NCBI GenBank assembly: GCA_013003215.1
Contig: JABDKD010000134.1
Span: forward strand, 1 to 64,000
Direction: 5' to 3'
DNA: 64,000 bases
Source: Pyrinomonadaceae bacterium
GTDB lineage: Bacteria; Acidobacteriota; Blastocatellia; Pyrinomonadales; Pyrinomonadaceae
Part shown: one piece after another, positions 29,612 through 33,939 of the stretch
Position numbering within the stretch: the stretch's first letter is position 1
Layout: every line of letters begins with the position of its first letter
The notes under the pieces: model-generated
What the model saw: the letters and a program-made list of their open reading frames with translations, nothing else
What the model was told of the DNA's origin: nothing
Databases searched by the model: none
Position numbers and translations under genes: made by a program

Positions 29612-30196
29612 ATGGCTTGGATTAAGACAAGAAACCCGAGAGATGCATCTTCCGACTATACCGACTTGTTGCGAAACCTTCGCCGAACATTCCCACCGGA
29701 ATACGGCACTCCTGTCGAATCTGCGAGCGGCAGCGGTGAATCAATCGTTGACTCGCATTCCCTTATCCCCGAAGCGCTGCATCACGCTTTCATGACCATG
29801 AGCGTCCTCATGGACGATGGACTCCCTCTCGAACGAAGGCAGCAAGAGATGATCGCAACAGTGGTGTCGAAAGAAAACGATTGCCATTACTGACTCGAGT
29901 CTCACGCAGAGTTTCTGCGTTTGGTAACGGATGATGACGAACTTGTTAATGCACTGAGATCGGATTATAAAACTGCTCCGATTACTGACGCGGAGCGCGA
30001 AATGTGCGATTATTCAGTGAAACTGACAAGAAATGCAGTTGATATCGAACCGGGACATCATGATCGACTCCGGGCCGCGGGATTTGAAGATACAGCGATT
30101 CTTCAGATAACTTTGATAGCTTCGTGGTTCAACTATATAAACCGCGTTGCCGACGCACTTGGGATAGGGCGAGACGTTATTAAGAGTCCCCAGTAA
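29612..30196 (+). CDS. Probable selenoprotein of the AhpD/carboxymuconolactone-decarboxylase family (UGA at residue 94)
   Basis: Two in-frame ORFs, 29612-29893 and 29921-30196, are one gene split by TGA at 29891-29893. Reading it as selenocysteine gives 194 residues with an AhpD-like thiol-peroxidase fold. The redox motif NDC91-H-Y-U94 replaces the usual CxxC; it sits after the [12 protein letters not shown] helix and before LESHAEFLR, as expected in this family. The C-terminus (YNFxNRxADALG-like: [14 protein letters not shown]) is also typical. The hairpin at 29904-29920 is in the place of a bacterial SECIS. The role is probably peroxide or other thiol-based redox chemistry. It is 7 bases upstream of a lipid-kinase-like gene. 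Alternative: a mutated CxxC pseudogene. SelABCD genes are not in this window. Confidence 0.82.
29904..29920 (+). promoter_or_regulatory. SECIS-like stem-loop after the in-frame UGA
   Basis: ACGCAG (29904-29909) pairs perfectly with CTGCGT (29915-29920), closing a 5-base loop AGTTT. The loop's second base is G (29911) followed by T. Counting the U of UGA as 1, the loop G is at 21 and U at 22; the E. coli fdhF SECIS has G23 U24 in its apical loop. This satisfies what is known of bacterial SECIS spacing and loop composition. The hairpin lies within coding sequence. Confidence 0.72.
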
Positions 30197-30202
30197 AAAA
30201 AT

Positions 30203-31189
30203 TTGCCAAATAATTCAGACAATTCACGTCAATCCTCCGATTTACCATTGATAATCGTTAACCCGAAATCAGCCGGTGGAGCTACAAAGGACCGTTGGTC
30301 CGGCCTGGCGTCCGACTTTCGGTCTCATTTCGGACCTTTCACAGTGGCATTTACAAAAGGTCCGGGTGACGGCGAGAACCTGGCGATGAAATTCGCGAAA
30401 TCCGGCAGAAAACTGATCATTGCCTGTGGTGGCGACGGAACCGTCAATGAAGTCGTGAACGGGATAATGAACAGTGGTGAGGACGTTGAACTCGGGATCC
30501 TCCCCGCAGGCACCGGCGGCGATCTTAGGCGATCGCTTGGGATGTCGAATACCCCCAGAGAGGCAGCGAAGCAGTTACGTGACGGGGTCACAAAACGAAT
30601 TGATCTGGGCCATGTTGCGTTTGTAGATCACGATGGGAATGATTCGGCGAGGTACTTCGTAAACGTTGCCAGCTTTGGTCTAAGCGCCTCGATAAACGAC
30701 CGGGTGAAGAACAAGGGGTCGCTTCAGTGGATTCCCGGCGAAACTGTTCGTGGCAAGACCAAATTTGCGGTTTCGGCGGTTCAGGAAGTAATCGAGCCGA
30801 ACTCGAAGACGGTGGTCGTAGCGTTTGATGACGGTAAACCGGCAAAACTCAACACGATCAATTTTTGTATATGCAATGCACGGTTTTTTGGCGGCGGCAT
30901 GAAGATCGCCCCCGATGCAAAAATGGATGACGGCTTGTTTGATGTTGTAAACATTGGCGATATCAATACGGCGCGGATATTTCTAAACGGTTACCGTCTT
31001 TACAGCGGGACACACACCGAGCTCGAAGAGGTGAAATCAAGACTTACAAAGAAAGTTTCTGTTGCGCCTGCGAACGCAGACGACTTGATCGATATCGAAA
31101 CCGATGGCGAGCTGCCGGGACGGCTTCCAGCTGAGTTTAAAATCGTGCCTTCGGCCCTGAAGATTAGAGTACCCACAAGGTCTGAATAA
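30203..31189 (+). CDS. Diacylglycerol kinase-like lipid kinase (DgkB/YegS family)
   Basis: This 328-residue protein has the DAGK catalytic domain. The nucleotide-binding motif GGDGT is at residues 76-80, the start resembles NPKSAGGA (19-26), and the ILPAGTGGDLRRSLG segment replaces the more usual GTxNDFAR, a notable change from Asn to Gly at the conserved turn. It should phosphorylate a diacylglycerol-like or sphingoid lipid using ATP. The frame has no early ATG; the TTG at 30203, 7 bases after the selenoprotein stop, is the best start. Its stop overlaps the next ATG by one base (TAATG), so the three genes look like an operon. Confidence 0.86.
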   Translation: MPNNSDNSRQSSDLPLIIVNPKSAGGATKDRWSGLASDFRSHFGPFTVAFTKGPGDGENLAMKFAKSGRKLIIACGGDGTVNEVVNGIMNSGEDVELGILPAGTGGDLRRSLGMSNTPREAAKQLRDGVTKRIDLGHVAFVDHDGNDSARYFVNVASFGLSASINDRVKNKGSLQWIPGETVRGKTKFAVSAVQEVIEPNSKTVVVAFDDGKPAKLNTINFCICNARFFGGGMKIAPDAKMDDGLFDVVNIGDINTARIFLNGYRLYSGTHTELEEVKSRLTKKVSVAPANADDLIDIETDGELPGRLPAEFKIVPSALKIRVPTRSE

Positions 31190-33939
31190 TGAGATCCAGT
31201 GCTATCCAACAAGCTAAACCCGGGTTTTGCGGGAGATTCATAGAATCGTGCCAGAAGCACGAGGCCAAGGTCGGAATGCGGATAGTCGGAGTCCCCGGTT
31301 CCGACGTCACGTTTGGTGAATTGCTGCGACAGGTCCGGGCGGTTTCTTACAGGTTAAAGAACACAGGGATCGGAAAAGGTGACAGAATATCCGTGATCGG
31401 CGAAAACCATCCTTCGTGGGCAATTTCATACCTTGCCGCCCTATATTCGGCCGCTGTTTGCGTCCCACTTGATCCGCACGGCGAGACGAGTACGCTCACG
31501 AATTTCATTGTCGATTCTGAAACAAAAGTGATCTTTTGTGATGGCGAAGCCTTTGAGAGGGTCAGGACGATTGTCGACGGGCTCGAATCAGAAATACCCA
31601 TCGTCGTTTGGGAAACTGAAAAGGATACGGAAGCGAGCCTGGCCCGAGGGGCATTGTCATTTTCGGATTGGACAGGCAGCGAGTTCCCGGGGGAATTCGG
31701 TGATGCTCCACCGCCGGCGAAACCGGAAGACGATGCCGTGTTGATCTACACCTCAGGAACCACCGGAAAACCGAAAGGAGTGCTGCTTACTCATTTCAAC
31801 ATCAACGCCGAACTCGATGCCATCGACGGTGTTCTGGAGTTTACGGAGCGCGAATCAGTGCTCAGCCTGCTTCCACTCTTTCATGTATATCTTCAAATCG
31901 TAAATCTGTGGCTAGCTTCAACGAAAGGAGCCATGGTGTTCTATCTAAGGGAGTTATCGCCCGATGAGCTATCACGCGGAATGCTTGAAAGCAAGATGAC
32001 AATCCTTACGAGTGTGCCTCGGCTTTGGTACTTGTTTCACAAAAAGATATTTGACGCGATAGATGAAAAGCCGGCAATCGTTCGTATTTTAGTACGCGGT
32101 TTACTGCGACTGAACGGGTTTACAAGGGATTATCTCAATATCAATCTTGGCCGTAAATTGTTCAAACAAGTCCATGATTCGTTTGGCGGAAACCTCGAAT
32201 TGGCAGTTACGGCCGGTTCGCGATTTGATGAAGCCGTCGCCATAGATTTTCACCGACTGGGCTTTACGATCGTACAAGGTTACGGGCTTAGCGAAACAAG
32301 TGGTGCGGCGACCGGAACCTACGTCGATGATAACCGCGTCGGTTCTGTCGGGAAACCGATGGGCGACGCCGAGGTTAAGATCGACAATCCGGATGAAAAC
32401 GGTGAAGGCGAGGTGCTCATAAGGGGTTCGATGGTCTTCAAAGGCTATGATAAAAACCCGGAAGCCACCTCCGAGGCCTTTACATCGGATGGTTGGTTTA
32501 AGAGTGGCGATCTTGGCAAGTTCGATCAAGACGGCCACCTGTACATTACCGGTCGGAAAAAAGACGTTATCGTTCTTCCATCCGGCAAGAATGTACATCC
32601 TGAAGATCTTGAAGTTCATTATCTGAAGTCTCCCCTGGTTGAGGAAATGTGCGTCATTGGAGTGCCGGATGAAAACTCCGATCACGCCGGAGCCGAGAAA
32701 CTTGTCGGGGTGGTGATTCCCGATTTTGAATATATGGGGAGATCGAGCATCGCCAATTCGGGCGAGGCAATTCGATTCGAGCTGGACAACCTCGGAAGAG
32801 ATCTGCCCGAATACCAGAGAGTCAGGGACTATGTGGTCAGATCGGAACCTCTCCCGCGAACTGCAACTAGAAAAATCAAGAGATTTGAGCTTAAGAAAGA
32901 ACTCGAAACCGGAATAGCAAACGGCCGCGGCGAAACTAAAACGTGGGACTTCTCGGAACAGGACCGTGAGACCCTCGATTCGGGGGCCGGTAAAGCTCTC
33001 GTTTCGCTGATCAACGCTCAGACCAGTGAACCACGCGAAATTCACCCCGACATGAACCTTGAGATCGATCTGAGGTTGGATTCTTTATCGAGAGCGGAGA
33101 TTGTTGCGGGGCTCGAGCAGGCTTTCGGATTTGAGTTTGGTGAGGAAGAAATAACCCGGGCCTACAAGTTCAGGGAGGTCGTGGGGCTGGTCGAGAAGCA
33201 TGTACCTGAAAGCAAGTCACAGGAACTCCTGGATCCGTCGTTCAACTGGAGCGAGATACTCTCCGAGCAGTCGGAACCGATACCGGAAACAAAACGAGTC
33301 CTTCGAAGGAAGCATATTTTCGAACCTTTTGCATTTGTCGGACTCAAGATCGCGAACCTGCTTTACCGCGTTTTCTTTCGACTTGAGGTCACGGGCTCGG
33401 AAAATTTGAAAGAAATTGAAAGTCCATTCCTGATCTGCCCAAACCACCAGAGCTACATTGACCCGCTTGTCGTTTGTTCGACTTACCCATACGCGGTCTT
33501 ACGCGACACATTCCACGTAGGTGCCAGCGAATACTTTCAGAACTTCTTCATGAGGATCATCGGTAGTGTGCTCAAGATCGTCCCGATCGATCCGGACACC
33601 CAACTGATCAAAGCAATGAGGGCCGGAGCGGTGGGACTGAACGCGGGCAAGATACTCAACATTTATCCGGAAGGCGAACGCGCGTTTGACGGAAACCTCC
33701 ACAAATTCAAAAACGGAGCGGCGATTCTTTCAAAAGAATTGGGCTTGCCGATCATTCCTGTTGCGATCGACGGCCTTCATAAAGTGTGGGGCCGGGGGTC
33801 GTTGAAGATTCGGGCGGCAAAGGTAAAAATCGAGTTTTGTGAACCATTGATTCCCTCTGAAAATGATGACTACGAAGAGATAACTGCCAAGCTGAAGGAA
33901 ACCATCAGAACTAGACTTGAGCAGATGCGTGATAACTAA
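31189..33939 (+). CDS. Acyl-activating enzyme / acyl carrier domain / acyltransferase fusion
   Basis: A 916-residue three-domain protein. Residues about 25-575 are an adenylating domain with the YTSGTTGKPKG P-loop (187-197) and GYGLSET. Residues about 605-670 are an acyl-carrier domain with Ser632 in LRLDSLSR as the phosphopantetheine site. Residues about 715-910 are a PlsC-type acyltransferase with motif NHQSYID (His753, Asp758) and YPEGER (828-831). The order suggests a fatty acid is activated, loaded onto the internal carrier, and passed to a lipid acceptor on one chain. The upstream lipid kinase may provide the phosphorylated acceptor. The Aas enzyme of E. coli is a two-domain analogue in reversed order and without the carrier. 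Confidence 0.88.
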   Translation: MRSSAIQQAKPGFCGRFIESCQKHEAKVGMRIVGVPGSDVTFGELLRQVRAVSYRLKNTGIGKGDRISVIGENHPSWAISYLAALYSAAVCVPLDPHGETSTLTNFIVDSETKVIFCDGEAFERVRTIVDGLESEIPIVVWETEKDTEASLARGALSFSDWTGSEFPGEFGDAPPPAKPEDDAVLIYTSGTTGKPKGVLLTHFNINAELDAIDGVLEFTERESVLSLLPLFHVYLQIVNLWLASTKGAMVFYLRELSPDELSRGMLESKMTILTSVPRLWYLFHKKIFDAIDEKPAIVRILVRGLLRLNGFTRDYLNINLGRKLFKQVHDSFGGNLELAVTAGSRFDEAVAIDFHRLGFTIVQGYGLSETSGAATGTYVDDNRVGSVGKPMGDAEVKIDNPDENGEGEVLIRGSMVFKGYDKNPEATSEAFTSDGWFKSGDLGKFDQDGHLYITGRKKDVIVLPSGKNVHPEDLEVHYLKSPLVEEMCVIGVPDENSDHAGAEKLVGVVIPDFEYMGRSSIANSGEAIRFELDNLGRDLPEYQRVRDYVVRSEPLPRTATRKIKRFELKKELETGIANGRGETKTWDFSEQDRETLDSGAGKALVSLINAQTSEPREIHPDMNLEIDLRLDSLSRAEIVAGLEQAFGFEFGEEEITRAYKFREVVGLVEKHVPESKSQELLDPSFNWSEILSEQSEPIPETKRVLRRKHIFEPFAFVGLKIANLLYRVFFRLEVTGSENLKEIESPFLICPNHQSYIDPLVVCSTYPYAVLRDTFHVGASEYFQNFFMRIIGSVLKIVPIDPDTQLIKAMRAGAVGLNAGKILNIYPEGERAFDGNLHKFKNGAAILSKELGLPIIPVAIDGLHKVWGRGSLKIRAAKVKIEFCEPLIPSENDDYEEITAKLKETIRTRLEQMRDN

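Follow-up and report, generated by a model that had tools for sequence, protein, structure and literature searches.

The gene at 29,612–30,196 on the forward strand of the window (the whole 64,000-nucleotide stretch analysed here) almost certainly encodes, as judged from its sequence, a single AhpD-like selenoprotein of 194 residues (COG2128/TIGR01926, CMD fold) with selenocysteine inserted at UGA codon 94. The sequence-only reading had described two open reading frames in the same phase with one TGA, at 29,891–29,893 (+), between them. This proves correct. The TGA is the sole internal stop across the 585 bases and is in phase with both the ATG start at 29,612 and the terminal TAA at 30,194–30,196. 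Codon 94 occupies the second position of the CxxC motif (C91-H92-Y93-U94) and, as had also been stated, family sequence lies on both flanks. Read through, the protein scores 105.2 bits against the NCBIfam model TIGR01926, ‘peroxidase-related enzyme’ (cut-off 81.8), and 35.4 bits against the Pfam CMD model PF02627 (cut-off 23), the matched segments lying on both sides of the TGA. At the N-terminus, M1 and W3-I4 are invariant in an alignment of 22 sequences that includes a Cys orthologue and a paralogue. An apparently split gene would then be a single selenoenzyme, and ordinary gene callers would break such genes.

How does TGA behave elsewhere in the window? Among the 43 open stretches that run for 200 codons or more it closes 12, as an ordinary stop codon does, which rules out a genome-wide recoding of UGA. 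Seven other single TGAs have an open stretch of 80 or more codons on either side. A DUF3857 gene truly ends at one of them; the remaining six, judged by eye, gave no family sequence on translation. Beyond the UGA of the selenoprotein gene the coding sequence is constrained: between random pairs of orthologues pN/pS comes to 0.24 in the part that follows the hairpin codons (see below) and to 0.33 in the part before the UGA, and among closer pairs the values are 0.17 and 0.28, respectively. Because purifying selection acts there, we conclude that the segment 3′ of the UGA is translated and useful.

Relatives were sought in 195 related genomes and in genome_contigs, where 227 loci encode a relative and 80 were kept. 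The genome_contigs loci were located with peptide patterns that also covered a Cys version of the active site, which kept the search free of a bias towards TGA. In the homologous loci first fetched, the aligned codon is TGA in 110 of 110, and conservation of this kind excludes a chance origin of the in-frame TGA. The close set comprises 113 loci, representing 88 distinct coding sequences, of which 87 have TGA and one has TGC; in a sampled alignment the orthologues are 55–69% identical.

Could the TGA be a nonsense mutation in a pseudogene, or a miscalled base? The source genome is a fragmented draft assembly (4.2 Mb, 274 contigs, 91.75% complete), and this, besides the single stop itself, is what speaks for such an explanation. 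Against it stand the recurrence of the TGA in independently assembled genomes (87 of 88 distinct orthologues), the purifying selection 3′ of the UGA and a SECIS hairpin with frozen synonymous sites. Unrelated stops or frameshifts scattered through the gene, the pattern named beforehand as pointing to decay, are absent from the close relatives read. A TGA conserved across independent genomes refutes the explanation by mutation or miscall, to which we assign next to no probability.

If the gene encodes a selenoprotein, a bacterial SECIS element is to be looked for immediately 3′ of the UGA. A hairpin that the sequence-only reading had not described is present there and adds to the case for selenocysteine. 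It begins 10 nt past the UGA, at 29,904–29,920 (+), and pairs ACGCAGA with TCTGCGT in a 7-bp stem around the loop GTT (29,911–29,913), 17 nt separating the UGA from the loop; as RNA it reads ACGCAGA-GUU-UCUGCGU, the 3-nt loop starting with GU. Bacterial SECIS elements have a loop of 3–9 nt, a stem of 4–16 bp, a spacing of 16–37 nt and a minimum free energy of −7.5 kcal/mol or lower; a G stands at loop position 1 or 2, and G or U frequently comes next (PMC13188914). The present hairpin, with its GUU loop, 7 bp, 17 nt and −9.6 kcal/mol (for a 37-nt segment), lies within every one of these limits. Its stability by itself is not unusual: the z-scores of the folding energy, −0.4 and −1.1, are weak and not significant. 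We therefore dropped folding energy as evidence and based the structure on conservation and covariation. A scan of the window with Rfam gave no match at the gathering thresholds.

The conservation is most evident at silent sites. The hairpin falls within codons 98–103 (H-A-E-F-L-R), whose normalised synonymous entropies, 0–0.16, are the six lowest of the 104 well-conserved codons that were scored (mean 0.75, s.d. 0.21); the synonymous sites of the codons directly flanking them on either side vary freely. All seven pairs are kept in 83 of 87 sequences. In a paralogous TGA-bearing group a hairpin, mostly ACGGxGA-GGN-UCUCCGU, stands at an equal distance from the codon. Its fourth pair is G–C where that of the orthologues is C–G, a compensatory swap that entails an exchange of Ala and Gly codons in one arm of the stem and a synonymous change of a Leu codon in the opposite arm; one further sequence (L170) has an additional double change, from C–G to U–A. 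Across orthologues and paralogues together (36 distinct sequences), 91.7% of cells are paired versus 84.3% after shuffling, and 20 cells are changed on both sides versus 9.1. Neither value was reached in 500 shuffles, and the signal is lost when the partners are slid. Since the count covers two related groups of sequences, part of it is one inherited change, and the case for a SECIS element is therefore better made by the frozen silent sites.

Is the machinery for selenocysteine available? A search of the genome for selA, selB, selC and selD had been proposed, and all four are present: selA at 523.6 bits (cut-off 268), selB at 398.6 bits (cut-off 242), selD at 356.8 bits (cut-off 125) and tRNA-Sec at 70 bits with the Rfam model (gathering score 47), the last confirmed by ARAGORN with anticodon tca. 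The selD gene (G000:C103:12225-13142) carries an in-frame TGA of its own, in the motif SCAGU-VAKL, so that SelD too is apparently a selenoprotein. From these trans factors and the hairpin, both read directly from the sequence, we infer that Sec is inserted at UGA 94. SelD and SelA would supply selenocysteinyl-tRNA(Sec); SelB-GTP would bind the hairpin just 3′ of the UGA and bring Sec to codon 94; and the ribosome would read through to the TAA at 30,194.

Where the codon is not TGA, the genome differs as well. Strong-match relatives were tallied in 61 genomes: an internal TGA is listed for 59, and the remaining two, G113 and G174, have TGC. Among the 59, selB was found in 49. In each of the ten others, whose assemblies are mostly incomplete, selA is matched at least in part (over the cut-off in eight), and nine of them have tRNA-Sec above the gathering score, the exception (G155) reaching 46.8 against 47. 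Neither selA nor selB was found in G113 (86% complete) or in G174 (99% complete), whose best tRNA-Sec scores, 43.4 and 47.1, equal or barely exceed what ordinary tRNAs score. Thus selA or selB was found in 59 of 59 genomes with the Sec form and in neither of the two with Cys (Fisher p = 0.0005), an association that is supportive rather than proof, the genomes being related and only two having Cys. In the proposed alignment, residue 94 accordingly faces a TGA codon in almost every close relative, and Cys (TGC) in the relatives for which neither selA nor selB turned up. In the tree, G113 is nested among Sec sequences, and its gene (L132, G113:C131) retains a hairpin-like remnant with one pair broken, likely a fossil SECIS, as expected after a recent change from Sec to Cys. 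G174 also falls among Sec sequences, but its branch is long and weakly supported. A near-invariant hairpin, together with Cys forms that accompany the absence of selA and selB, makes this a clean experiment of nature on how the Sec trait is lost.

These observations bear on another explanation, that the UGA is read as some other residue, by suppression or by genome-wide reassignment, and that the hairpin serves another purpose. It draws on the fact that the inserted residue cannot be told from sequence alone. We regard it as very improbable: the Sec machinery is complete in the genome, TGA ends other reading frames of the window in the ordinary way, the only genomes with close Cys forms are ones in which neither selA nor selB was detected, and the hairpin obeys the bacterial SECIS rules. 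The proposal of a functional selenoprotein is supported by the Sec genes, the conserved TGA, the Cys relatives and the SECIS hairpin.

By the titles of their records, the TGA-bearing orthologues come mainly from Acidobacteriota, an abundant and little-cultured group of soil bacteria among which this selenoenzyme is common. Some are from Gemmatimonadota, Planctomycetota and Abditibacteriota, and one is from a Betaproteobacterium; this spread suggests some transfer, though the labels of metagenome-assembled genomes may be wrong. A draw of 396 genomes from the phylum gave 40 matching places, 39 with a listed internal TGA and one, in G174, without, the TGA positions having been read individually for part of them. 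The plasmid collection gave no match. One relative has two TGA-bearing copies (G071:C14 and G071:C41), which share 64% and 57% identity with the window protein. The chances seem to us evenly balanced that this is an essentially obligate-Sec branch in soil bacteria, belonging to Acidobacteriota and a small number of further phyla, where HAEFLR and the SECIS are locked together and Cys appears only upon loss of the Sec trait, as in G113 with its decayed hairpin.

What chemistry might the protein perform? Four residues are invariant in the 22-sequence alignment: E79 (29,846–29,848), C91 (TGC, 29,882–29,884), position 94 (Sec or Cys) and H98 (29,903–29,905), all encoded on the forward strand. They form the AhpD constellation E-x11-C-x2-C/U-x3-H, E79 lying 12 residues before C91 and H98 four residues after U94. 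This is also the spacing of Glu118, Cys130, Cys133 and His137 in Mycobacterium tuberculosis AhpD, where Cys133, the second Cys of CxxC, is the peroxidatic residue. On the strength of that correspondence, Sec is presumed to occupy the attacking position of an AhpD-type site. U94 would replace the peroxidatic Cys, C91 would be the resolving thiol, and H98 and E79 would act as a proton relay, H98 being the presumed catalytic His.

The fold agrees with this assignment. By phmmer the solved relatives are 2pfx, 2oyo, 6k40, 3c1l and 2prr. The AlphaFold2 model (pLDDT 74 overall, which is moderate, and about 84–98 in blocks within residues 71 to 170) matches the same five, followed by the AhpDs of Pseudomonas aeruginosa and M. 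tuberculosis, including the H137F mutant structure of the latter; the rmsd values are large, the N-terminal part of the model being poor. By analogy with its family, the protein probably works as a thiol/selenol peroxidase or hands electrons to a peroxiredoxin or OsmC-type peroxidase.

The same selenoprotein might instead be a thiol/selenol oxidoreductase with a substrate other than peroxides, one that carries out, for instance, a Bmp8-like reductive dehalogenation. The Bmp8 debrominase is a fold relative among the matches (E 3e-4 to 6e-4), and the functions of COG2128 are mostly untested. Nor do the neighbours (an amino acid permease, an AMP-ligase and DAGK) point to peroxides. The permease lies upstream of the selenoprotein gene at 27 loci, and relatives of the AMP-ligase/acyltransferase lie near it, mostly downstream, at 18 loci, the window and 17 others; no peroxidase or reductase gene that would fix a biochemical partner is among the conserved neighbours. 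Since the conserved permease and AMP-ligase/acyltransferase offer no redox partner, we rejected the neighbourhood as a clue to function. In the window, the region directly downstream (30,203–33,939) encodes, on the same strand, a DAGK/YegS-type lipid kinase and an AMP-ligase/acyltransferase fusion. What weighs against a different substrate is that the nearer structural and sequence matches are AhpD-like and antioxidant proteins, and that a Deinococcus radiodurans mutant without its AhpD-like protein is more sensitive to H2O2, variants in the CxxC cysteines complementing poorly (PMC8945050). We consider such other chemistry unlikely, though to be taken seriously, and prefer the peroxidase-type role. 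The D. radiodurans protein of 6k40, which belongs to the same matching group, may or may not be the product of the gene mutated in that study.

The source genome and its relatives contain further candidates. A second AhpD-like gene in the same genome (L131, G000:C28:4333-4776; 150 bits with TIGR01926) has a UGA at the equivalent position, in the motif C-V-Y-U, and a hairpin of its own; it belongs to the paralogous TGA-bearing group, whose members are mostly 34–43% identical. In a genome of the same genus, a more distant CMD-family gene (L147, G006:C301:13631-13993) has an aligned TGA, lacks the first Cys (GGAPU) and is followed by a hairpin-like GGCGGC-AGTTC-GCCGCC. To go by its sequence, it is possibly a Sec enzyme without a partner Cys. 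A distant CMD-family gene with the motif CPFU (L144, G012:C157:39385-39789) is possibly another selenoprotein branch of the fold.

How does the protein compare with known systems? It had been called a probable new selenoprotein, and the word ‘new’ does not stand, since AhpD-like CxxU selenoproteins of COG2128/TIGR01926 are already on record: 27 Sargasso Sea sequences (2005; PMC1088965), entries in bacterial genomes, that of Alkaliphilus among them (2006; PMC1794560), 299 occurrences in GOS (2008; PMC2398784) and a listing of TIGR01926 as CxxU in a 2026 review (PMC13188914). A literature search of incomplete coverage returned no description of the acidobacterial branch, and likewise nothing specific for the AhpD selenoproteins described in NCBIfam. 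Two other NCBIfam families are related in sequence, but the window protein falls well below their equivalog cut-offs: NF041238 (AhpD_rel_CFYUT, listed as a CxxU selenoprotein family; PMC13188914) with 56.6 bits against 175, and NF053654 (YciW-related (seleno)proteins) with 31 against 310. It is likewise below the cut-off of the bona fide AhpD subfamily TIGR00777 (20 bits against 191.95). With M. tuberculosis AhpD (1knc, 1gu9) it shares the CMD/AhpD fold and the Glu-Cys-x-x-Cys/Sec-x3-His spacing, but identity is 10–13% over the structural match, and that enzyme has Cys where the window protein has Sec. The AhpD-like protein of D. radiodurans (6k40) is the best structural match and matches in sequence over residues 70 to 185 at about 25% identity, with CxxC in place of CxxU. 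The known AhpD-like 1 selenoproteins (PMC1088965, PMC1794560, PMC2398784, PMC13188914) are alike in family model, in the position of Sec and in the immediate 3′ SECIS, and here too UGA stands at the second CxxC position, with Cys homologues. We conclude that the gene belongs to this known family and not to a new one. Whereas AhpD-like 1 is known mainly from marine metagenomes and a few genomes such as that of Alkaliphilus, the present branch, an addition to the family, is mostly acidobacterial, near-uniform in its use of Sec and nearly invariant in its SECIS hairpin.
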